DNA from: Asticcacaulis machinosus
Lineage (GTDB): Bacteria; Pseudomonadota; Alphaproteobacteria; Caulobacterales; Caulobacteraceae
DNA: 64,000 nt
Assembly (NCBI RefSeq): GCF_028550435.1
Contig: NZ_JAQQKV010000001.1
Coordinates: 682,001-746,000, forward strand
Reading direction: 5' to 3'
Made by a program: the position numbers and the translations under genes
Shown here: in pieces, positions 34,439-44,384 of the stretch
How positions within the stretch are numbered: position 1 is the stretch's first letter
Layout of the letters: every line of letters starts with the position of its first letter
Notes under the pieces: generated by a model
What the model was told of the DNA's origin: nothing
The model's database searches: none
What the model saw: the letters and a program-made list of their open reading frames with translations, nothing else

Positions 34439-35511
34439 AAAATAACTCACGTAGACCAAAGCCGTCGGGAAATACCCCGGCACCACCGCACGGTATCCCT
34501 TACGCAGCCATCATCGTCGTTGTGATAGCGCTGCAAGAAGAAAACAACACCTTTCATTCGGTCCTGAGAGCGCGCGGTAATACGAGATGGAAAAACGTGC
34601 CGCCTTCGCCTCGACGTACCTATACCTGTGATTTCCACTCTGAGGTCGGTCCCGTCCTCATATCTGTGCAGGGCCTGAAGGGGATGGGCAATATCGAGGC
34701 GGTTTTAGGCACAACCGAAGCGACGACTCGCCTCCATCCCGATCTTGTCATTTTGGTGGGCCTTGGTGGCTCTTTGCACCCGGAAAAAGTGCAATTGGGT
34801 GACGTTATTTTATCTAACCAAGCCAAATTGTATATGAGCGACAAGGTCGCGGACATCGGAGCAAAAAAGCAGGGTAAAAACCGCTATAGGTTTAGCGATG
34901 CTCCCGATCAAGGCGCAGCGTTGATTGTTGATAAACGTGACAAATTTATGGACTCTTCGTTTTTTCGCTACGAGCGCCGATTCATCGAGTCCGAGGGGAC
35001 ACATGATTTATTGGGGAAAGCGGAGCATGATTTATGCACCGATCTCACATGGATGAATCGCGTGCCAGACGCGGTCGTGCCTGATAAATACAAGGCAGCC
35101 TACAGTGCCCGGTCAGGCGGCGCTATTCATAGTGGTTGGCTTCTAGCGAGTTCGCAGGTCGTCGACAGCGCGGAATTTCGCGACTATCTACTCGATAAAA
35201 ATACCTCCCTTCATCTTGATATCCACATGCAAACGGCGGAGCCGGATCGATCGCATTGGAAGGCCGGTGAGATTCTGGCGGTTGATATGGAAAGTTACGG
35301 CGTACTAAAAGCGGTCGAAACCCTTCGGGTAAACATTGGCAACACTGTCGGCGGCATTGTGGTCCGTGGTGTGTCAGATCTTTGCGAAGAAAAGGTTGGC
35401 ACCGATGATTTGTCCGGCAATGCAACCCGTTTAGTCGCGGTCCAAAACGCGTCAGAAGCAACACTCCGAATAATAGAGGGTATGGATTTCCTAAGTCTAT
35501 TCGATACCTAG
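34435..35511 (+). CDS. nucleoside phosphorylase/nucleosidase-fold protein
   Basis: A 358-residue protein of the PNP/MTAN superfamily. The fold signatures are IIVVVIALQEENNTF at the N-terminus of the domain, VILVGLGGSLHPEKVQLGDVILS for the Gly-rich nucleoside site, AVDMESYGVLKA with the ribose-binding Met-Glu, and VVRGVSDLCEEK near the end with the usual Asp. Members cleave purine nucleosides or nucleotides; PNP-type effectors in phage defence have been reported to degrade ATP. An insert (about residues 115-230) is unlike metabolic enzymes. It ends a four-gene overlapping operon and overlaps the relaxase stop tail-to-tail by four bases. The substrate is not predictable. Confidence 0.75.
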   Translation: MKNNSRRPKPSGNTPAPPHGIPYAAIIVVVIALQEENNTFHSVLRARGNTRWKNVPPSPRRTYTCDFHSEVGPVLISVQGLKGMGNIEAVLGTTEATTRLHPDLVILVGLGGSLHPEKVQLGDVILSNQAKLYMSDKVADIGAKKQGKNRYRFSDAPDQGAALIVDKRDKFMDSSFFRYERRFIESEGTHDLLGKAEHDLCTDLTWMNRVPDAVVPDKYKAAYSARSGGAIHSGWLLASSQVVDSAEFRDYLLDKNTSLHLDIHMQTAEPDRSHWKAGEILAVDMESYGVLKAVETLRVNIGNTVGGIVVRGVSDLCEEKVGTDDLSGNATRLVAVQNASEATLRIIEGMDFLSLFDT

Positions 35512-37430
35512 TCCACGCCCCTTCCTCGGGAGCGTCCAATTGACCAGTTGATGGTGCCTCTGTCGAATACACCGGCCACACTCTTGCCCACATGCGGCTC
35601 CAGCACCGGCCGCCACGGCACCAGCGTAAAATCCCGCGCGCGCTCGATGACGGCCAGACGTCCTTCGGCGGTGTCGCGATAGCCCAGAAGTTTGCCTTCC
35701 ACGCGCTCACCCTGCCGTGCTGGCACATAGGGCTTCTCGCCGTCCGCCACGACACGCCGGGCGATTGAGTCCCATTCACGCCGCCGAAGGCCCTCGCGCT
35801 CGGCTGGCGACAGTACCTGCTGGCCCTCGACCGGTACGCCCATCCCTTCAGACGCCAACCAGGCTGCACGGGCGATACGGGCCTGCCCGACCCGGCCACC
35901 GAACGCCACGTCGGAGACATCGGGCCCCATTTCCCGGTCAAGCCAGGTCAGCCCCGGATACTGAGCCAGTCGCTCCAAAGGCAAGGACGATAGCCGCTCG
36001 ATCTGCACGGGTTTGAGGCGGGCCTGATGGCGCTCGTAGGCCAGTGCGTTTTCGCCGTAGGAAGGTGAGATTACAAAGCTTCCGCTTTCCAACCGCTCGA
36101 CACCGCCGGTCGCGCGTCGAATGGCTTCCAGACGCCGAATATGGGTCTGGGCAAAAGTATCGGTAGCGGAGGGATCAGCCTTCAGGTGAGCTTCAATATC
36201 ATAAAGGCTGCCATTGGCCGTCGCCACGCGGAAAATAGTGTGGTCGGCAGGCTTCAGTTCTGGCGTCACAGACACCACCCGCACGATCATCCCTGGCTCG
36301 ATGCTGTCGGCCGGTCCCAGTCGACCGATGTCGAACACGTGGTCGCGTCCGTCGGTCGCGGCCACGGCCAGATATTGCCGCTCCCCGAAATCGTCCAGTT
36401 CGCCCCGGCGACGAACCTCACCAATGATGGCAGGTGCCTGCTCGCTGGCATCCAAATGAAGGACGGCGTGACGCAGGTCCGTTCCGTTCATGTCGTAGGT
36501 CAGGGATTTGATGAGATCGCCGCGCTCACCCATCTGTCGTAGGGTCGTCTCCATATCGTTGCTGAGCCGCCACAGGCCGCCGCCCATGTCTTCCGCCAAT
36601 CCGAAAGCTCCCAGGGTCTGGAGGCGGCCCGCGCGAAGGCTATGTTGGAACGCATCACTATGCCTGGCAACGACGGTCTGATCCGCGCCCTTGTCACGCC
36701 AAAGCTGACGGTCAATACGGGTTAGGCGCGGCTGATCGATTTCGCGGCGCAGACTGTCGGCGATTTCGTGGTCGGTTTGTGGCCCGAGATCGAGCGTGAC
36801 CAGGGCCTCCGCCCGCGCACGAATGCCAGTGCTGATATAGTCGCGAGCCATGACCAGATCCTGCCCCTGATCGTCGCGCCCCCGGATGGCGATATGGGTG
36901 TGGGGATGGCCCGTGTTAAAGTGATCGACAGCCACCCAATCGAGCCCCGTGCCCAAGTCCTTTTCCATCTGGGACATGAGGCGTCGGGTCAGTCCCTTCA
37001 GGTCGTCATACTGATCCCCATCCTCGGGGGCCACGATGATCCGAAACAGGTGCCGGTCGTCGGCGCAGGTTTCCAGGAAGGCCTTGCCGTCCGCGCGGTC
37101 ATTGTCGCGATCATACAAGGCCCCGGCCCGCCCGTCGCGTGTGGTACCATCGCGTTGCAGGTATTTGAGGTGGGCGCGGGCGGCTCCCAACCCCTTCCCG
37201 GCCAGCCGGGTGAAACGGGCTTTGATAATGACGTGGCGGCTGCCTTTGGGCCGGATACCGATGACCGCTCGCCCGCGCCCCATACGCGCCTTAGTGACAA
37301 AGCGCACGCCGCCCTTTCGCGTGCCGCCAGCGCGCTGAACGGCGTGCAAAACCTGACCGCGAAAGCTGCCTTCGCCCCTCGCGCGCATCTTTCCGAGCCG
37401 AGGTTTGAACTCATCATCCTTTGAGACCAT
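35508..37430 (-). CDS. relaxase (TraI/VirD2-like, DUF3363)
   Basis: A 640-residue relaxase that nicks the element at oriT. The metal-binding triad motif HFNTGHPHTHIAIRG lies near residue 173. The N-terminal catalytic region begins with a basic stretch (RGEGSFRGQVLHAVQRAGG), and the C-terminal DUF3363 region follows (about residue 290 onward). The tyrosine nucleophile is not certain; YLQRD near residue 95 is a candidate. The start at 37430 has AAAAGG upstream; a GTG nine bases earlier is the alternative. It converges with the phosphorylase-fold gene. Confidence 0.9.
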   Translation of the reverse strand: MVSKDDEFKPRLGKMRARGEGSFRGQVLHAVQRAGGTRKGGVRFVTKARMGRGRAVIGIRPKGSRHVIIKARFTRLAGKGLGAARAHLKYLQRDGTTRDGRAGALYDRDNDRADGKAFLETCADDRHLFRIIVAPEDGDQYDDLKGLTRRLMSQMEKDLGTGLDWVAVDHFNTGHPHTHIAIRGRDDQGQDLVMARDYISTGIRARAEALVTLDLGPQTDHEIADSLRREIDQPRLTRIDRQLWRDKGADQTVVARHSDAFQHSLRAGRLQTLGAFGLAEDMGGGLWRLSNDMETTLRQMGERGDLIKSLTYDMNGTDLRHAVLHLDASEQAPAIIGEVRRRGELDDFGERQYLAVAATDGRDHVFDIGRLGPADSIEPGMIVRVVSVTPELKPADHTIFRVATANGSLYDIEAHLKADPSATDTFAQTHIRRLEAIRRATGGVERLESGSFVISPSYGENALAYERHQARLKPVQIERLSSLPLERLAQYPGLTWLDREMGPDVSDVAFGGRVGQARIARAAWLASEGMGVPVEGQQVLSPAEREGLRRREWDSIARRVVADGEKPYVPARQGERVEGKLLGYRDTAEGRLAVIERARDFTLVPWRPVLEPHVGKSVAGVFDRGTINWSIGRSRGRGVD

Positions 37431-37579
37431 GGAGGCCACCTTTTCTGTTACTTTTCAGTGTTTTAGACCTAAACACCTCCACACGCCCGGCCTTGCCTCC
37501 CTAAAATCCGATGTGCAGACAATGACTTGGCCGACATAGGAGGCCGTGGTTTTATCTTGCCATCCCTTTTCCCTTCTCT
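37431..37579. other. candidate oriT region next to relaxase
   Basis: This short non-coding gap between the relaxase and lytic transglycosylase genes contains TATCTTGC at 37553-37560, close to the YATCCTGY nick-site consensus of RP4/VirD2-type relaxases. GC-rich partly complementary segments (GGCCTTGCCTCC and GGAGGCCG) stand nearby. Position next to the relaxase is usual for oriT. The match is short, so certainty is low. Confidence 0.3.
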
Positions 37580-38185
37580 TCACGGCCCGCCCTCCGGTCG
37601 CGCCATCTGACTCAGCGGCACGAACAAGCCGTTGGCGCCTTCGGGGGGCACCGGCTCAGGGGGCGTGTCCGCTCCGACAAAAATGGCTATGCCCGAGGCC
37701 AGGGTGGGCTCGGCGCGAACAACCGTTCGGAGGTAAAGGCGCGTTTCCAAAGGCAGGGGACGGCCTTTGAGCCAGTCAGCGTACCGTCCGGGCCCGGCGT
37801 TGTAGGCGCCGAACAGACCGGGGTAGCCGAAGCGATCGTACATGGCGCGCAAATAGGCTGTACCGGCCCGGATGTTGTCGCAGGGGGCGTGCGGATCAGG
37901 TCCCAAACCATGTTGGACGCGCATCATGTCGTAGGTGCCGGGCATCAATTGCATCAACCCCATGGCTCCGGCTTTGGAGGTGATCGGCCGACCGTTCAAA
38001 TGCGTCCGTCCCCCACTTTCCGCCTGTATGACGGCGTCGATCCATGGAAAGGGAATAGCGAAATCTGCACTCGCTTGCATAATGCAAGCCCGCCAGAAAC
38101 TTGTCTCAGACTGCGCCCACACCGGCCCGCTTACCAGTCCAAAACCGGTGATTAGGCACGGTAGAAACCGCAACGCCCGCATCAC
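37580..38185 (-). CDS. lytic transglycosylase (VirB1/TrbN-like)
   Basis: A 201-residue SLT-family enzyme that opens peptidoglycan for the transfer channel. A signal peptide (FLPCLITGFGLVSGPVWAQ) precedes the domain. The catalytic Glu is in IDAVIQAESGGRTHLN, and the family signatures AGAMGLMQLMPGTYDMM and YLRAMYDRFGYPGLFGAYNAGPGRY follow. Its ATG overlaps the traF-like stop by four bases, placing it in the transfer operon. Confidence 0.9.
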   Translation of the reverse strand: MMRALRFLPCLITGFGLVSGPVWAQSETSFWRACIMQASADFAIPFPWIDAVIQAESGGRTHLNGRPITSKAGAMGLMQLMPGTYDMMRVQHGLGPDPHAPCDNIRAGTAYLRAMYDRFGYPGLFGAYNAGPGRYADWLKGRPLPLETRLYLRTVVRAEPTLASGIAIFVGADTPPEPVPPEGANGLFVPLSQMARPEGGP

Positions 38186-38718
38186 ATAGGCTCCAGTCGG
38201 CCGCGTACTAAGGCCATGGAAACGGCCCCGAAATAGCGACCATCGAAGGAGTGCGGACTGTTAGGATTGAGCGGCAGAAATTCGCCGGATTGCAGAGATC
38301 GGCAGTCTTGCCACTGTGGCAAAGGACGCCCCTGCCCGTCGCGGGTTTGGCGTGTGGCAATGCTGTGGCCATTGATCAAAATCGTCATCCCAATGGCGCA
38401 TATCTCGTCGCCGGGGAGTGCGGCGACGGTCTTGATCATGGGAACCGATTTGGGGAGATACCGGCGTTTGTCCGCCAGATCTCGGACATTCGCCGGCGTG
38501 GTCATGAGCACCACATCGCCCCGGTGCAGGACCTTTACAGGGTATACACGGTAGAAGCCTTTGGGGACGCTGGCGCTGGCGTTGTAGACGACCATGGGCG
38601 TCTCCCGACCCCACTGATTGAACGCCAGACTGAGGAGCGCGGCCGTGGTGATCCCGGACAAAACCAGGTGGCGACCACGACGGCGGCGCTGGTGCTGGGG
38701 TGACGGGGTTTGCCGCAT
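38182..38718 (-). CDS. traF: TraF-like conjugative signal peptidase (S26)
   Basis: A 178-residue S26 peptidase. An N-terminal membrane anchor (LVLSGITTAALLSLAFNQWG) precedes the Ser region (NASASVPKGFYRVYPV) and the Lys region (PMIKTVAALPGDEIC), with a late PHSFDGRYFGAV. TraF peptidases process and cyclise TrbC pilin, which is present at 29052. The start at 38718 has GGAGG upstream and overlaps the AlpA-like stop codon by one base (TAATG). Confidence 0.9.
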   Translation of the reverse strand: MRQTPSPQHQRRRRGRHLVLSGITTAALLSLAFNQWGRETPMVVYNASASVPKGFYRVYPVKVLHRGDVVLMTTPANVRDLADKRRYLPKSVPMIKTVAALPGDEICAIGMTILINGHSIATRQTRDGQGRPLPQWQDCRSLQSGEFLPLNPNSPHSFDGRYFGAVSMALVRGRLEPM

Positions 38719-38954
38719 TATTTGGCCTCCCCGTTCGACGGAATTTGCACCCCGTGCGCCTGTGACCACGCGTCGAGATCATCGATATGGTAGCGGATAT
38801 GGCGACCATGCTTACGATAGGCCGGACCGCGCTTTTTGGGTCGCATCTTCTCCAGGGTACGCGGCGACAAACCGATGTAAAACGCGGCTTGTTTGGTGTT
38901 GAGAAACGGGCTGCCCTTCTTGGCGGCGGCCGCACGATCTTGTTCATTGGACAT
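38718..38954 (-). CDS. AlpA/excisionase-type HTH DNA-binding protein
   Basis: A 78-residue MerR-superfamily HTH protein: PFLNTKQAAFYIGLSPRTLEK, then MRPKKRGPAYRKHGRHIRYHIDDLDAW. Such proteins act as excisionases or prophage-type activators and are standard next to traF in these elements. The ATG at 38954 has AGAGG upstream. Its family motif is intact, unlike the frameshifted relative at 575-919. Confidence 0.85.
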   Translation of the reverse strand: MSNEQDRAAAAKKGSPFLNTKQAAFYIGLSPRTLEKMRPKKRGPAYRKHGRHIRYHIDDLDAWSQAHGVQIPSNGEAK

Positions 38955-39191
38955 GGAATTCGCCTCTTGTCGGATGGTGGACACCGGCGCGCAATTGAGC
39001 GGGCCTGCCGACAAGACTGGGCGTGAAACACGAGACCCGGCAGGGTCGAAAACGGGGGGATGCGAAAACGTCCGTCCCTCCCGCGCGCTGGCTTTGTCCC
39101 TGTGGCTGTCTGACTATGCTCGACCCGCGAGCCCTGCCGAAGGCAGGGCGAGCCGCCGGACAATGCTCGGGCTGGGGCTCGGTCCGGGCTC

Positions 39192-39239: not shown

Positions 39240-40430
39240 TCAGATGACGGCGGCCATGAGTTTCGTGGCCTTCATTTCGAGGTCGAGGCGGCTGTCTTGG
39301 TGCGGCTTCTGACGTGCTAATGCCGTGATGCCCTGCACGAAATCGAAGACGCTTTCCGGCTTCTTGCCCTCTTCTTTCAGCACGGTGTCGATGATTTTCT
39401 GGGTTTCCGACTTGGTAAATCCGCGCTTGGTGAGGAAGCCTGAGCGCTCGTCATCGGTCTTTGCCACCACGGTTTCGCGCGCGGCTTTGACGCCTTCGAT
39501 AAACGGCGTTGGGGACGAATTGGCGAAGCGGGTCAGGGCGGGGGCAGCCTCATAGGCGAAGCGTCCGGCGGCGAATTTGGAATGCCGGATGGTGATGGAT
39601 TCGAAGTTTTCGACCCCCCAGATATTCCGGTTCTGACAGACGCCACGCAGGTAAAACGACGCAATGCCGAGGCTGCGCGATCCCACCTCAGAGTTCCAGC
39701 AATAGAAGCCCCTGAAATAGACATCGGGGTCGCCATTGGGCAAACGTCCCGCTTCGATGGGGTGCGTATCATCCACCAAAAACAGGAACACGTCCCGGTC
39801 TGAGGCGTAAAGAGTGGTCGTTTCCTTGGTCACGTCCACATAGGGGTTGTGGGTTCGGGTCGTCCAGTCCATCACACCGGGAACTTTCCAGCGGGTTTCG
39901 CCGAGGCCATTCCCGGCGATCTTGCGCACGGCATTGACCAGTTCATGGTCCCAGATGCGGCCATAGTCTGGCCCTGTCACAGCGCGCAATTCGATGCCAC
40001 CATCTGCGGTTTCCAGTGTCTTGATCTGTTCGGCGCGGTGGTTCATCAGACCGTGTTGCAGGTTAATGCCTGACAGGGGCGCGGGCAACTGGCGCAGGTA
40101 TCCCGAAGGGGCACCGACAAGGGTACACAGTTGGCCGAAACTCCAATGGGTCGGGGCAATCGGATCGGGTCTGCCGGGACAAATCAGAGCGAGGCGTTCG
40201 GCGTCTTCTAAGCTGGCTTCCACACGGACTTGATCACTGGGGACGGTGCGGACATGAGCGCTGTCGGCCCGCCCTCTCACAGCGTCATAAAGGTCATTTA
40301 GGTTTAGAAACCGCTCGTCATCGGGGCGGGCAAACCACTGCGAGGACACACGACCATCACGATTGCCGAGGAACGGATTGACGGCGAAGGCTCCGGACAC
40401 GGCGGTCGGATCAGAGGGGATATTGGACAT
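39240..40430 (-). CDS. DUF932 protein
   Basis: A 396-residue DUF932 protein, a family common on plasmids, phages and conjugative elements, with unknown biochemistry (an N-terminal part linked to DNA or recombination functions has been suggested). Visible are VRVEASLEDAERLALICPGRPDPIAPTHWSFGQLCTLVGAPSGYLRQLPA, the central RDVFLFLVDDTHPIEAGRLPNGDPDVYFRGFYCWNSEVGSRSLGIASFYLRGVCQNRNIWG and a helical C-terminus. The ATG at 40430 has AAGGAG eight bases upstream. A structured RNA element sits in its leader at 40469-40641 and a terminator follows the stop. Confidence 0.85.
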   Translation of the reverse strand: MSNIPSDPTAVSGAFAVNPFLGNRDGRVSSQWFARPDDERFLNLNDLYDAVRGRADSAHVRTVPSDQVRVEASLEDAERLALICPGRPDPIAPTHWSFGQLCTLVGAPSGYLRQLPAPLSGINLQHGLMNHRAEQIKTLETADGGIELRAVTGPDYGRIWDHELVNAVRKIAGNGLGETRWKVPGVMDWTTRTHNPYVDVTKETTTLYASDRDVFLFLVDDTHPIEAGRLPNGDPDVYFRGFYCWNSEVGSRSLGIASFYLRGVCQNRNIWGVENFESITIRHSKFAAGRFAYEAAPALTRFANSSPTPFIEGVKAARETVVAKTDDERSGFLTKRGFTKSETQKIIDTVLKEEGKKPESVFDFVQGITALARQKPHQDSRLDLEMKATKLMAAVI

Positions 40431-40468
40431 TTGAAACGCTCCTTTTGGGCTTGGGTTGCAGCGCAAGA

Positions 40469-40641
40469 CCGCGCTGAAACCCTGCCCCTCGGCGAGAGCT
40501 GGGGTAGCAAGGGTCAAGGGCGTTTCCGGCGGAGGGGGATCACCCGGCCTGCACGGAGCCGTTGCGGAGGAAGGCCGGGGAGACCGCCGGAAACGGGACT
40601 GCAGGGACGCTCCCTTGACCCGCGCGAGGGCGGAGCCCTTA
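40469..40641 (-). ncRNA. structured RNA element in DUF932 leader, copy A
   Basis: On the minus strand this 173-nt leader folds into a nested stem. Positions 40612-40621 pair with 40511-40520 (GGGTCAAGGG/CCCTTGACCC), 40584-40594 pair with 40522-40532 (GTTTCCGGCGG/CCGCCGGAAAC), and 40573-40579 pair with 40543-40549 (CCCGGCC/GGCCGGG). A separate hairpin CTC-TCGCC-GAG lies at 40488-40498, and a 5' hairpin AGGGCTCCGCCCT near 40628-40640. A second copy at 44138-44331 has different arms that still pair, which supports RNA structure. The element ends 39 bases upstream of the ATG, so cis-regulation of translation or transcription is likely. It is not a riboswitch or ribozyme class I know. Confidence 0.7.
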
Positions 40642-40997
40642 GCCTTAAATTGTCTTATTCCGATCTCAATTCCGCTGCTTTCGGTGGATATATTGTTCTC
40701 CAGTCGCCGGAACGCCCTAACACGGACTCCGGTGGCTTGCGGACGGTCTCCCAGCCCCCCTGAAGACCGTTCGCCCCCTCTCAAGGCTAAACGACAGACC
40801 CCGCCGTTGCCCCCGGCGAGGTCTCTTTTTTTTACGCTGCAATTCGATTTGCCTCACACCCTTGTGTGTGGCGGCGACAGGGGTCAGGCGATAGGTTCCC
40901 CCATGGTCATCGGGATCATTCCCCCCCCCCCTCGACTCCGATGACCGGAGCGGCTTCGCCCCCCGAAGCCGCTCCCCAACCGCCTCCGCATGCATAC
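40642..40997. other. intergenic, no gene seen
   Basis: This 356-base gap between the RNA element and the DUF736 terminator probably holds the DUF932 promoter near the AT-richer part at 40640-40700. It includes a ten-C tract at about 40921-40930. Apparent reading frames here have no ribosome sites and are low-complexity GC-rich readings. Confidence 0.5.
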
Positions 40998-41028
40998 GAA
41001 AAGACCCCGCAGCGCTGGCCACGGGGTC
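40998..41028 (-). terminator. rho-independent terminator after DUF736 gene
   Basis: On the minus strand GACCCCG and CGGGGTC form a seven-base-pair stem around a 12-base loop, followed by TTTTC. It lies 11 bases beyond the DUF736 stop codon. Confidence 0.75.
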
Positions 41029-41039
41029 GGGTTGAGGCG

Positions 41040-41348
41040 TTATTTCGACTGCGGACGGGTCCACAGCAGATTGTAGGTGTCCGGGTGTTCGTCCTGGAAC
41101 AGGCTGGCATAGATCGGATGCGGGAAGGAGGGGTCGTCGAGCTTGAGGGAGACGTAGTCGCGCCCGTTGTCGGCGGTGCGCTTCCAGCCGGCCCCGATTT
41201 CCGCCGGCCCGGTATAGACACGGTAGTCGGGGGCGTTTTCGGAAGCGGGCTCGCTTTCGACCAGACGGGCCTTGAAGTTCAGGGTCGCGGTCTTGATGGA
41301 GCCAGAGAAGCCGGATTCGGATTTCGAAAAAGTGCCGATAATGGACAT
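41040..41348 (-). CDS. DUF736 protein
   Basis: A 102-residue DUF736 protein: MSIIGTFSKSESGFSGSIKT, followed by ATLNFKARLV and ending in YNLLWTRP. The family is almost always found beside traG-, DUF932- or ParB-type genes of alphaproteobacterial plasmids and elements. It has an OB-like or beta-barrel look, and its function is unknown. The ATG at 41348 has AAAGGAAC upstream; longer readings into the Arg/Pro-rich leader are rejected. It forms its own transcript, with a terminator downstream. Confidence 0.9.
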   Translation of the reverse strand: MSIIGTFSKSESGFSGSIKTATLNFKARLVESEPASENAPDYRVYTGPAEIGAGWKRTADNGRDYVSLKLDDPSFPHPIYASLFQDEHPDTYNLLWTRPQSK

Positions 41349-41963
41349 AGGTTTGTTCCTTTCTGCGCTCGGGCCGCGCCAATCGCGACCTCGATGGGGG
41401 TCGTGCGAACGGGGCCGGACCGCGCGCACCCGCAGGGCCGAAGGACTGGCGGTGGGGGCTTTTTTGCTTCGCGATGCAAAGCGCAAAGCGCGGCGGAAAA
41501 AAGCTCACAGCGCCGGTTGCGCGCTTAGGGCCGGTTGCGTTCAGACCTCTCATCGTCGAGGTCGCGCCAAGGCTTGCGGCTCGGCCAGACAGAGGCGAAC
41601 CGTGCGCCGTCGTCGCCCGCCGGGACATCCGCACCGGGTTCTCTGGCTCCATCGGGATGGGGCTCCGTTCGAATAGCCCTCGGCGGGGCGAAACGTCTGC
41701 GGCCCTCCGAAACAGCCCCCGATGGCCGCGCCCGTATCGGGTCGAAGGGACACGCCAAAAGACGGGAAGCGTACCACCGACGCGGGACGTGAACGCGCGG
41801 TGCAAGATGGGTGAGCCACCTTTTCGGCCTCTGGTCTATGCCCGCCTGTTTCAGGGCAAAGCCCTGCCAAAGGCAATTATGAGAGACCGGCGAGTGGTCG
41901 AAGCCCCCCTCAACCGATCCCGTGTTCCTCGCTGCCGGGTCTTTTCGAGGGCGTTGGGGCGAC
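41349..41963. other. GC-rich non-coding leader, no gene seen
   Basis: About 615 bases lie between the DUF736 start and the terminators of the ParB-like gene. All six frames give Arg/Pro/Gly-rich readings without ribosome sites, including a long plus-strand frame that continues antisense through the ParB-like gene, so I call it non-coding. It presumably carries the DUF736 promoter and a long GC-rich leader. I found no match there to the structured RNA element of the two neighbouring leaders. Confidence 0.5.
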
Positions 41964-42036
41964 AAAAAAAGCCCCGCGCCACCGGCGCGGGACCGTCTAA
42001 AAAGATAAGACCGGGACCGCCCAAGCGGTCCCGGTC
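41964..42036 (-). terminator. tandem terminators after large ParB-like gene
   Basis: Two hairpins follow the ParB-like stop on the minus strand. The first has a perfect 12-base-pair stem (GACCGGGACCGC/GCGGTCCCGGTC, loop TTGG) at 42009-42036, followed by TTATCTTTTT. The second has an eight-base-pair stem (CCCGCGCC/GGCGCGGG) at 41973-41991, followed by GC and seven T. Such a strong double stop insulates the DUF736 gene from read-through. Confidence 0.9.
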
Positions 42037-42040
42037 CCCT

Positions 42041-44095
42041 CTACTCTGCGGCTTCGGGCAGGTCCGGCAGACCGTCCGTCTCCTCCGGCGCGGGCAAGGC
42101 CAGCGCCTCATCCGGCTCATCCGGCTTATCCTGATCCGGCAGCACGGGTGTACGCAGGCACATCGGAAGCCAGCCCGTCGCGGCCACCAGTTGCTCGGCG
42201 GCAGCGGCCATTTCCGGCTTTTTCAGTTTGGTCAGACGGTCGGCGGCGTCATCGCCCACGGCTTGGCGCACGGCGGCGAGAATTTGGCCCTTGGTCACGC
42301 GGCTGAAATAACTGCGCACGGTCGGACGCCAATGCCCCGTCATATCCAGACCGAGGTGCGCCGCCATGTCGATAGACGCGGCATAGGCCGCCTTGGGCAT
42401 GTAGGGCTGGATCACGGCGAAGACGGTCGAGGCCGTGCAATGGGCCATGAGCGCCCCCAAGGTTTCGGCGTCCAGTGTCAGAATATGCGCCCACAGGTCG
42501 CCCGGAAAATCCGGCAAACCTTCGGCCCATGCGTCATGCCGGGTATTGAGCGCCGCCGCCGTGGGCGTCTCGTCCAGGCCGTCGGCGAAGCTGGAAATTG
42601 GTCCGCTGCGGGCGGTGATGTCGAGACAGGTGACGCTGCGCTGCCTATAGAAGGTGTCGAGGGCGAGCTTATGGACGAGGAAGCGTGCGGCCAGTTCCGG
42701 CTGTTCGGCTAAAGCGTAGCGCAGGGCGAGTGTGCGGTGGGTGGTCAGGTCGCGCAGCAGGAGGTCGGACAACGGCACGTCCTCCGCCACGTCTGCCTCC
42801 CCGTCTTCCTCCGCATCCGGGTCTGGGTTGGCTTCGGTGCTGTCGCGGGTAAAGCCGTCCGTTTCCGGTGCGTCCGCCGCTTCGTCTTCCGGTTCGGGCA
42901 CCTCGTCTTCGGGGCGGATCAGGCCCCGTGTGATATTGACCGTGCCGTCATGGGCGAGGCTGACAAAGACACCGCCGCGCGCGATATCGTCCGGTAGATA
43001 GGCCTCTTGCAGCGCTTCAAGGCGCTCGATTTCGGCCTCCAGTTCGCCCGCCCGACGGTCGATGTCATCGGGCAATTCGTCGGCCCCTTCAAAGGGGGCG
43101 ACGAGGTCTTCGAGGGTTTCGTGTGCAAGCGACAAAGCTGCGCGGTCGTCGGCTGACAGGTCTTGCGGCTCCTTGTAAACGCGACCCCATCCGTTGCTAT
43201 AGGGGTAATCCAAAGCGACTTCGGCCCATTTCCAGCCTTCGGCTTGGCGGGTGGTAGCGGCAACCTGCGCCAGATGTTGCATGACCAGTTGGTCCAGCAA
43301 CGCCGCGTCGGTGAAATAGCCACCACCGTCTTCGGTGAACAGGTCGCGCTCGATGACGCCCCCGGCGGTTTCATAGGCGTCAATGCCGATCAGCCTGGCA
43401 CGGCGGTCGGTGTGGGGCACCTGCCCCTCGGTCAGAAGACGTTTGATGTGGTAGGGTTCATTATAAACGCCTTTCAGCCGGTCGAAGGCCGCTTCCTGAC
43501 GGGCGTGGTCTTCGGTGACGGCGTAGGCCATGAGTTGGGACAGGGTCAGCTTTTCGTCGCGGTAGGCCTGCATCAGGACGGGCGACACCGCGCCGAGGCG
43601 CAGCCGTTGCTTGACGGTCTGGTCCGACACGCCGAAGCGGGCGGCGATCTCGGCGGCGTCCATGCCGCGATCAATATTCAAGGCGCGGAACGCCTCATAC
43701 TGATCGGCGGGGGTCATGGCTTCGCGGGTGACGTTTTCGTCCAGACTGACCTCATGGGCGTCATCGGTTTCGCGAATGACGCAGGGCATGGGCGTGTCAC
43801 GGGGGATTTCGCCGTCCTTGGCGCGGGCGATCTGGGCCAGTCTGCGGCCCTCGCCCGCCGTCACGAAATAGAAGCCGGTTTCGGCCCCGGCCTCATCCAC
43901 TTCGGCCTTGACGATCAGGTTTTGCAGGATGCCCTTGGCGGCGATACTGGCGCGCAAACCGGCCAAAGATGCGGCGCTGTGCGGGGTCTTGCGGGCATTG
44001 TCAGGGGATTTGGTCAGGCGATCCAAGGGGATCAGGGTTTGAAAGCCGGACTGAACCAGATCGGTAGAGACGGGCTTGAGAACAAGTTTAGACAT
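42041..44095 (-). CDS. large ParB-like DNA-binding protein
   Basis: A 684-residue ParB/Srx-fold protein typical of these conjugative elements. Residues 17-120 carry the ParB box (SPDNARKTPHSAASLAGLRASIAAKGILQNLIV and FYFVTAGEGRRLAQIARAKDGEIPRDTPMPCVI), then SLDENVTREAMTPADQYEAFRAL and an HTH (DAAEIAARFGVSDQTVKQRLRLGAVSPVLMQAYR). The long C-terminal part includes an acidic linker (about 395-450). Known relatives act in partition, regulation or protection of incoming DNA. Its leader holds the second copy of the structured RNA element, ending 43 bases before the ATG; the stop is followed by two terminators. Confidence 0.88.
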   Translation of the reverse strand: MSKLVLKPVSTDLVQSGFQTLIPLDRLTKSPDNARKTPHSAASLAGLRASIAAKGILQNLIVKAEVDEAGAETGFYFVTAGEGRRLAQIARAKDGEIPRDTPMPCVIRETDDAHEVSLDENVTREAMTPADQYEAFRALNIDRGMDAAEIAARFGVSDQTVKQRLRLGAVSPVLMQAYRDEKLTLSQLMAYAVTEDHARQEAAFDRLKGVYNEPYHIKRLLTEGQVPHTDRRARLIGIDAYETAGGVIERDLFTEDGGGYFTDAALLDQLVMQHLAQVAATTRQAEGWKWAEVALDYPYSNGWGRVYKEPQDLSADDRAALSLAHETLEDLVAPFEGADELPDDIDRRAGELEAEIERLEALQEAYLPDDIARGGVFVSLAHDGTVNITRGLIRPEDEVPEPEDEAADAPETDGFTRDSTEANPDPDAEEDGEADVAEDVPLSDLLLRDLTTHRTLALRYALAEQPELAARFLVHKLALDTFYRQRSVTCLDITARSGPISSFADGLDETPTAAALNTRHDAWAEGLPDFPGDLWAHILTLDAETLGALMAHCTASTVFAVIQPYMPKAAYAASIDMAAHLGLDMTGHWRPTVRSYFSRVTKGQILAAVRQAVGDDAADRLTKLKKPEMAAAAEQLVAATGWLPMCLRTPVLPDQDKPDEPDEALALPAPEETDGLPDLPEAAE

Positions 44096-44137
44096 AGCCA
44101 GTTCCTTTTCTAGGTTAGGGTTTCAGCGGGCAAAAGG

Positions 44138-44331
44138 CCGCGCTGAAACCCTGCCCGTCGGCGAGACCGGGGTAGCAAGCGCAAGGGCGGTCGGGCGGAG
44201 GGGGATCACCCGACCTGCACAAGCGATGACTGGCGTGAAACTAAGTCTGAACTGAGCGCGCGGAAGGCCGGGGAGACCGCCCGGCCGGGCCGGAGGCCCC
44301 TGCCCTTGGGCGCGCGAGGGCGGAGCCCTTA
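44138..44331 (-). ncRNA. structured RNA element in ParB-like leader, copy B
   Basis: A second copy of the element at 40469-40641, on the minus strand and in the same position relative to a start codon. The pairings are conserved while the bases differ: 44302-44313 with 44179-44188 (GCGC..AAGGGC/GCCCTTGCGC), 44277-44286 with 44189-44198 (GGCCGGGCGG/CCGCCCGACC, one mismatch), 44266-44272 with 44209-44215 (with one G-U), and the small hairpin GTC-TCGCC-GAC at 44157-44167, which is CTC-TCGCC-GAG in copy A. The apical loop is about 28 bases longer than in copy A. Conserved single-stranded segments are GTGATCCCCCTCCG and TTGCTACCCC. Confidence 0.7.
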
Positions 44332-44384
44332 GATCTTTTGAAAAGATACATTGCTTGCGGGATCGCTACCTTGCGCAAACAGAC

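Follow-up and report, generated by a model that had tools for sequence, protein, structure and literature searches.

A probable leading-region element of single-stranded DNA before anti-restriction and establishment genes in Asticcacaulis and other bacteria

Introduction

What kind of molecule is under selection in the leaders that two genes of Asticcacaulis machinosus share? In a 64,000-nucleotide stretch of this genome (contig NZ_JAQQKV010000001.1, positions 682,001 to 746,000; hereafter the window), two related elements of about 170-195 nucleotides (nt) lie on the minus strand, copy 1 before a DUF932 gene and copy 2 before a large ParB-like gene. A sequence-only reading had proposed a new structured RNA that might coordinate two maintenance genes. 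We find that the structure is real and absent from Rfam 15, but that the label "RNA element" should give way to that of a leading-region element which probably acts as single-stranded DNA. Evolutionary evidence suggests that the folding strand is the DNA strand opposite the messenger RNA (mRNA), the one expected first in a new cell; from this single-stranded DNA (ssDNA) the element may switch on anti-restriction genes.

Results

A selected fold common to both leaders

One covariance model matches both leaders, which share a mean column identity of 79%; the two copies (rows L001 and L002) are themselves among the 30 rows behind the model. Its end lies 43 nt before the start codon of the DUF932 gene and 47 nt before that of the ParB-like gene. 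As had been claimed, these distances are alike; the family median is 43 nt (interquartile range 38-47, 164 distinct downstream open reading frames, ORFs). Three stems differ between the copies through compensatory changes, which we verified: P2 reads GGGTCAAGGG/CCCTTGACCC in copy 1 and GCGC..AAGGGC/GCCCTTGCGC in copy 2, P3 reads GTTTCCGGCGG/CCGCCGGAAAC and GGCCGGGCGG/CCGCCCGACC (the latter with one C-A), and P5 reads CTC/GAG and GTC/GAC around the same TCGCC loop. P4 of copy 2 holds a single G-U on the sense strand. Sense here is the minus strand of the window, and the proposed folding strand is the plus.

Folded as the sense strand, the two leaders reach z-scores of -4.5 and -4.7 against dinucleotide shuffles, with 0 of 200 shuffles as strong in either case. 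The six-helix structure, derived in part from the same 30-row alignment on which it is scored, has 89.1% standard pairs across the aligned relatives (shuffled mean 74.9%) and a covariation score of 0.357 (0.128); both partners have changed in 131 cells (47.5) and in 20 of 32 pairs (14.6). None of 500 shuffles attains the value for standard pairs, for doubly changed cells or for covariation, and slid structures score far lower. With its pairings kept in the 30 relatives, the claim of a selected structure stands. So does that of novelty: no Rfam 15 family reached its gathering score, whether in the window or at eight homologous loci, and the weak sub-threshold matches near the copies look like chance, none being relevant. 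These scans rule out a known Rfam family as the identity of the element.

In P5 (for instance window 40488-40498, with the GGGCA behind it), the conserved loop TCGCC is involved in two pairings that covary, GTC/GAC on either side of the loop and the loop's GCC with a downstream GGC (CG in 24 and GC in 4 of 30 rows, alignment columns 225-232). These form either a tiny pseudoknot or two mutually exclusive pairings.

Mispairs point to the probable folding strand

Covariation alone cannot separate RNA from DNA; the spectrum of mispairs can name the strand that folds. RNA tolerates G-U and not A-C, and an A-C on one strand is a G-T on the other. Alignment columns were fixed by anchors, for want of which 4 of 122 and later 32 of 230 distinct sequences were dropped, leaving 198 copies. 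The search pattern imposed nothing on the two central P4 positions. Read on the mRNA strand, the first of these pairs is GC in 85 copies, AC in 74, AT in 18, G-U in 0 and otherwise in 21; the second is GC in 64, AC in 47, AT in 26, CG in 20, TA in 20, CA in 5, G-U in 8 and otherwise in 8. Taken either way round, A-C mispairs number 74 and 52 at the two positions, against 0 and 8 for G-U.

Where Watson-Crick pairs flank the position, A-C again outnumbers G-U in P3 (44 to 9) and P4 (85 to 8); in the apical hairpin the counts are 12 and 0. Reduced to cluster-distinct events, each counted once per cluster and position (for the apex, pair letters were counted too), the ratio is 59:11 for P3 and P4 and 10:0 for the apex, hence 69:11 in all (sign test, 2e-11). 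Single cluster representatives give 12:1 for P4. The events of P3, P4 and apex differ from those of P6, nearer the gene, by Fisher's test (4e-6). In a cruder, unflanked count over the consensus pairs of both folds, the family has 105 A-C and 28 G-U in the 30-row set, or 33 and 12 with one per cluster. Two RNA controls show the reverse: the thiamine pyrophosphate (TPP) riboswitch has 8 G-U and 0 A-C (flanked, sense-fold pairs), and radC RNA has 26 and 1 (unflanked). Because A-C exceeds G-U in P3, P4 and apex, opposite to both controls, the folding strand is most likely the one opposite the mRNA, at least for P3-P4.

Hairpin loops suggest DNA

Three-base loops are found in 148 of 197 P1 hairpins and 61 of 97 P4 apices. 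On the template strand, 105 of 293 triloops are GNA, mostly closed by C-G, whereas shuffled loop letters give a mean of 36 and a maximum of 52 in 1000 trials; once per cluster and loop, the count is 39 of 150 against 17.7 expected. The sense strand has 1. Loops of RNA type are few: GNRA occurs 7 times on the template and once on the sense strand, UUCG never. GNA triloops are the classical, very stable DNA mini-hairpins, and their presence on the template strand favours ssDNA over an antisense RNA.

Genes behind the element

The start codon behind the element is ATG in 155 of the 164 ORFs, and 125 have a Shine-Dalgarno-like motif, starts having been called by a script that favours such motifs. 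At an E-value (E) of 0.001, 143 of the 164 were scanned for families, from the first 150 listed; three ORFs shorter than 60 amino acids (aa) and seven near relatives were left out. Pfam finds ArdC (37), DUF932 (14), HTH_ParB (14), ArdA (13), DUF3768 (11) and N6_N4_Mtase (6), with RadC, DUF736, DUF2958, DUF6876 and polyvalent-protein domains as singletons; NCBIfam names 18 ParB-like proteins, and over Pfam and NCBIfam the DNA methylases come to 6-7. The genes are mostly of establishment and anti-restriction types, a set broader than the two maintenance genes of the sequence-only reading. By way of comparison, the leading region of plasmid F carries ssb, ParB-like, psiB, DUF932 and antirestriction genes on one strand before traM.

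Orientation relative to transfer genes

In ten plasmids, 20 of 24 copies read the same way as the annotated mobC/relaxase genes (p 0.0015), transfer direction being taken from gene order; with two related Caulobacter plasmids counted once, 17 of 20 do so (p 0.0026). The relaxase gene usually enters last, and if it does so here, the template of these 20 copies would be the transferred strand. Coverage was 49.5 of 57 kilobases (kb) for pHAL16, 48.9 of 59.9 for pPBA and 49 of 92.5 for pBM151. We included pLA6_010 (mobA named, one partial match) and left out W01, W03, W04, W07, W08, W09 and W14, which have no relaxase or mobC gene in the part covered, and L207, whose relaxase is unnamed. Multi-copy genome loci are co-oriented in 14 of 14 cases among the 118 stretches listed in the pattern search described below, some of their copies being cut or weak. 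The orientation of the window's two copies agrees with the plasmid majority.

Copies beside mobC lie opposite to the other copies of the same plasmid in pCB4 (58912, plus strand), FWC26 p2 (10287, minus) and pBM151 (30356, minus).

Distribution of the family

With copy 1 as query, blastn found matches in 32 of 149 related genomes, some over short stretches only, and in 69 plasmid records, 3 of them across most of the query; E. coli genomes and phages gave no blastn match to it. The covariance-model search that had been suggested for alphaproteobacteria found the element (model R1) in 27 of 385 genomes of the class; in the phylum it was found in 20 of 398, each tally counting the window's own genome. 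All 14 plasmid records searched matched, these having been picked by similarity to the leaders.

A DNA pattern drawn from the P4 loop reaches at least 118 stretches of named genomes, and all 118 listed match the model. Among 80 titles listed, most are alphaproteobacteria, with some gammaproteobacteria and Bacteroidota; other carriers named there are Thiothrix, Competibacter, Pseudomonas veronii, Runella, Dokdonia and a Nostoc contig, along with metagenome bins named Bacteroidetes, Saprospiraceae or Acidobacteria. Some of these may be misbinned. The Bacteroidota isolates L095 (Runella) and L113 (Dokdonia) score 112.4 and 97.5 bits, and the small proteins behind their copies have no Pfam match. 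Nitrosospira supplies a copy on a betaproteobacterial plasmid. We rejected a viral contig (L164), which fits the pattern and fails the model, and R388, where the best score is 10.3 bits (E about 1).

Features of the window

Within the window the model matches copies 1 and 2 and nothing else (Table 1); the leader of the DUF736 gene between the two genes has no match. The window's DUF932 protein scores under the curated Pfam cut-off, and among the 14 downstream genes of the element family with a DUF932 domain the best E is 2.3e-46.

Table 1 Coordinates of the element copies and of neighbouring features in the window
Feature	Position	Strand	Remarks
Copy 1, leader of DUF932 gene, whole model match	40474..40644	-	cmsearch 149.9 bits, E 4.2e-24
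P1 hairpin, copy 1	40626..40640	+	sense loop TCC, C(GGA)G on plus strand
P2 sense 5' arm, copy 1	40612..40621	+	
P3 sense 5' arm, copy 1	40584..40594	+	
P4, apical hairpin and conserved CTTCC...GTGCAG internal loop, copy 1	40543..40579	+	
P3 sense 3' arm, copy 1	40522..40532	+	
P2 sense 3' arm, copy 1	40511..40520	+	
Conserved linker TTGCTACCCC, copy 1	40501..40510	-	
P5 small hairpin CTC-TCGCC-GAG, copy 1	40488..40498	-	covarying pairs
P6 hairpin adjoining Shine-Dalgarno, copy 1	40453..40482	-	
DUF932 gene, 396 aa, 3' of copy 1	39240..40430	-	Pfam DUF932 E 6.7e-4, under curated cut-off
Copy 2, leader of ParB-like gene, whole model match	44143..44334	-	cmsearch 134.2 bits, E 2.4e-21
P1 hairpin, copy 2	44316..44330	+	
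P2 sense 5' arm, copy 2	44302..44313	+	
P3 sense 5' arm, copy 2	44277..44286	+	
P4 and long apical hairpin, copy 2	44209..44272	+	
P3 sense 3' arm, copy 2	44189..44198	+	
P2 sense 3' arm, copy 2	44179..44188	+	
Conserved linker TTGCTACCCC, copy 2	44169..44178	-	
P5 small hairpin GTC-TCGCC-GAC, copy 2	44157..44167	-	
P6 hairpin, copy 2	44118..44151	-	
Large ParB-like gene, 684 aa, 3' of copy 2	42041..44095	-	Pfam ParB_N E 1.7e-4, HTH_ParB E 2.8e-4, under curated cut-offs
DUF736 gene, between the DUF932 and ParB-like genes	41040..41351	-	Pfam E 4.4e-35
HTH_17 gene, rdfS-like by position	38718..39014	-	Pfam HTH_17; gene order as in ICEMlSymR7A
Presumed oriT gap, transglycosylase gene to RlxS-like relaxase gene	37440..37579		gene order alone
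RlxS-like relaxase gene	35508..37439	-	Pfam Relaxase and DUF3363; name from gene order

In this Asticcacaulis genome, window 35508-39014 holds a transfer module of the ICEMlSymR7A type (rdfS-like gene, traF, transglycosylase, RlxS-like relaxase). The presumed origin of transfer (oriT), the gap before the relaxase gene, yielded no nic site, and the nic-like word TATCCTG, that of RP4, is absent from it. In ICEMlSymR7A, the rdfS operon has oriT and rlxS on its downstream side (PMC11963761, PMC8627217), and the window's order of rdfS-like gene, traF, transglycosylase gene, gap and relaxase gene is the same as the one given there (PMC11963761). Given this match, both leaders of the window would point in the direction of the presumed oriT.

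A double hairpin with C-runs in its loops, at window 40904-40979 (plus strand) between the DUF736 and DUF932 genes, weakly resembles 6C RNA. At 33.7 bits it falls below the gathering score of 47, and we rejected this identity. In L006-L009, a similar C-run precedes the leader of the DUF932 gene.

Discussion

On balance, we favour a reading in which the element is a structure that the transferred strand (T-strand) of conjugative elements forms as ssDNA in their leading region, and acts as a promoter for anti-restriction and establishment genes. When the T-strand enters the recipient, the template segment of the gene, presumably single-stranded in vivo, would form a long, imperfect hairpin of P2, P3 and P4, with P1 alongside. 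This fold would be an entry site for RNA polymerase, allowing anti-restriction and establishment genes to be transcribed before the second strand is made, and duplex formation would then turn the promoter off. Transcription would start near the conserved linker TTGCTACCCC, with P5 and P6 inside the transcribed leader, ahead of the Shine-Dalgarno sequence. The hairpins nearest the gene lack the mispair signature, and on a simple reading P2-P4 would act as DNA and P5-P6 would belong to the transcript; lacking asymmetry, P5 and P6 may have a role in the mRNA.

Upstream of the element, a scan for sigma70-like -35/-10 pairs, made with a matrix of the sigma70 type and without shuffle control, finds a pair above threshold in 0.6-7.1% of 170 copies per bin. 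An upstream sigma70 promoter was rejected on this count, and because no such signal stands out there, the element itself is left by elimination as the best promoter candidate.

Several observations weigh against this proposal. In contrast to Frpo, no sigma70-like -35/-10 stands out upstream of the element or within it; inside, the same scan finds such a pair in 0-0.6% of the 170 copies per bin. The antisense strand is lower in folding energy in 102 of 111 copies, but the gap between strands (6.99 kcal/mol against 5.27 in shuffles; with DNA parameters 4.32 against 3.55) is mostly base composition, and after this shuffle control we dropped it as main evidence. The mispair count over the consensus fold depends on the strand that supplies the pairs: sense-fold pairs alone have 18 A-C and 24 G-U in the 30-row set (flanked 2 and 3; one per cluster 2 and 5), antisense-fold pairs, flanked, 13 and 5 (one per cluster 14 and 5). 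Single cluster representatives give 4 A-C and 5 G-U for P3. Elsewhere the signature fades or is missing: the P5 outer pair has 8 G-U and 2 A-C, P6 has 60 G-U and 44 A-C (events 30:29, no asymmetry), P2 shows little asymmetry (16 A-C and 12 G-U cells in 72 copies) and P1 none in the loose window (37 A-C and 39 G-U events), its cells in the tight window being 6:2. The clusters behind the event counts come from k-mers and not from a tree, and strand-biased mutation could add A-C pairs. Four of the 24 copies in the plasmid count are reversed (pCB4 58912, FWC26 10287, pBM151 30356, and pDE2 28303, which lies beyond the relaxase). In that count gene order supplied both the oriT sites and the direction of transfer, and the plasmids are partly related and were chosen by similarity to the leaders.

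One rival is a cis-regulatory RNA leader: P1-P6 would fold in the 5' untranslated region, and a protein or ligand common to several genes of mobile elements would control their translation. Such a leader would account for the narrow start-codon distance, the covariation, the better-than-shuffled folding of the sense strand, the position of P6 next to the Shine-Dalgarno sequence and the want of an antisense signature in P1, P5 and P6; radC RNA, likewise multi-copy on one strand, counts as RNA in the same kind of count. It leaves unexplained why A-C outnumbers G-U in P3, P4 and the apex, the GNA triloops on the opposite strand beside a lack of UUCG, and the want of an upstream sigma70-like promoter that stands out. 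We hold this leader unlikely: the A-C excess, the triloops on the template strand and the orientation of 20 of 24 copies indicate that the RNA reading of the element is probably wrong.

If instead the T-strand hairpin recruited a primase or polymerase, the complementary strand would start beside the genes and make them double-stranded early. The strand evidence fits such a single-strand initiation site as it fits an ssDNA promoter, and several of the plasmids carry annotated ssb and toprim-domain genes; a replication start, however, would not have to keep a set spacing from a start codon or recur ahead of one gene after another, and we find this role improbable. A folded, cis-encoded antisense RNA regulating the gene from the opposite strand would explain which strand carries the wobble pairs, but GNA triloops fit DNA, GNRA and UUCG loops are few, and the orientation relative to mobC/relaxase would be unexpected, which makes it very improbable. 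A double-stranded inverted repeat, be it protein operator or cruciform, would agree with the long repeats and their mostly Watson-Crick pairs; we give it hardly any credence, for a duplex operator yields no strand asymmetry, and that of P3/P4 and the loops is strong.

The ssDNA promoter that we favour has precedents. The Frpo elements of F are T-strand hairpins that reconstitute -35/-10 boxes and drive an early, transient expression of leading genes (PMC9849209, PMC11541004). Frpo-type elements, with F, ColIb-P9 and related conjugative elements as examples, are the main known case of genes expressed from a single strand on entry. With Frpo/ssi of F and ColIb-P9 the present family shares its place ahead of leading-region genes, the kind of genes, its multiplicity and genes read towards oriT (here a presumed one), and probably also a hairpin on the transferred strand (PMC11541004, PMC9849209). 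It differs from Frpo in being shorter and G+C-rich, in having several hairpins and no -35/-10 seen, and in occurring in alphaproteobacteria and beyond. The 45-68 kb leading region of F gives no match to our model (best 9.2 bits, E 1.1). The best explanation would be an element that is Frpo-like but not homologous to Frpo.

Two families in Rfam invite comparison. Like the present element, radC RNA (RF01754) stands before genes of mobile-element type and recurs in one orientation along a contig, and it differs by folding as sense RNA in the same kind of count. At least two of its copies share a strand of the same contig in 4 of the 6 genomes found for it (L238-L252). One copy of our family, in Thiothrix, precedes radC. 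We rejected radC RNA as the identity of the element: its best score in the window's own genome is 14.9 bits, elsewhere than at the copies and against a cut-off of 40, it has no match at the Thiothrix copy, and the reverse test reaches 8.9 bits at best. STAXI (RF01728) lies near ssb and antirestriction genes, as our family does, and its authors considered ssDNA; it differs in its repeated pseudoknots, its UUCG loops and its home in Enterobacteriales (PMC2864571). It too was rejected, with no match at gathering score in the window or the eight homologous loci.

More tentatively, and as a possibility we would not call probable, the family may represent a widespread class of ssDNA control that dispenses with -35/-10 boxes. 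Either polymerase would recognise such elements by their DNA shape and conserved internal loops, or a factor that the element itself supplies would read them, and they would work across phyla from Pseudomonadota to Bacteroidota, giving incoming DNA immediate-early anti-restriction expression. If the ssDNA reading is true, early anti-defence expression would be general among conjugative elements of alphaproteobacteria and beyond. The element would then serve as a marker, and the genes behind it, among them DUF932, DUF3768 and unnamed small proteins, would be candidate anti-defence genes.

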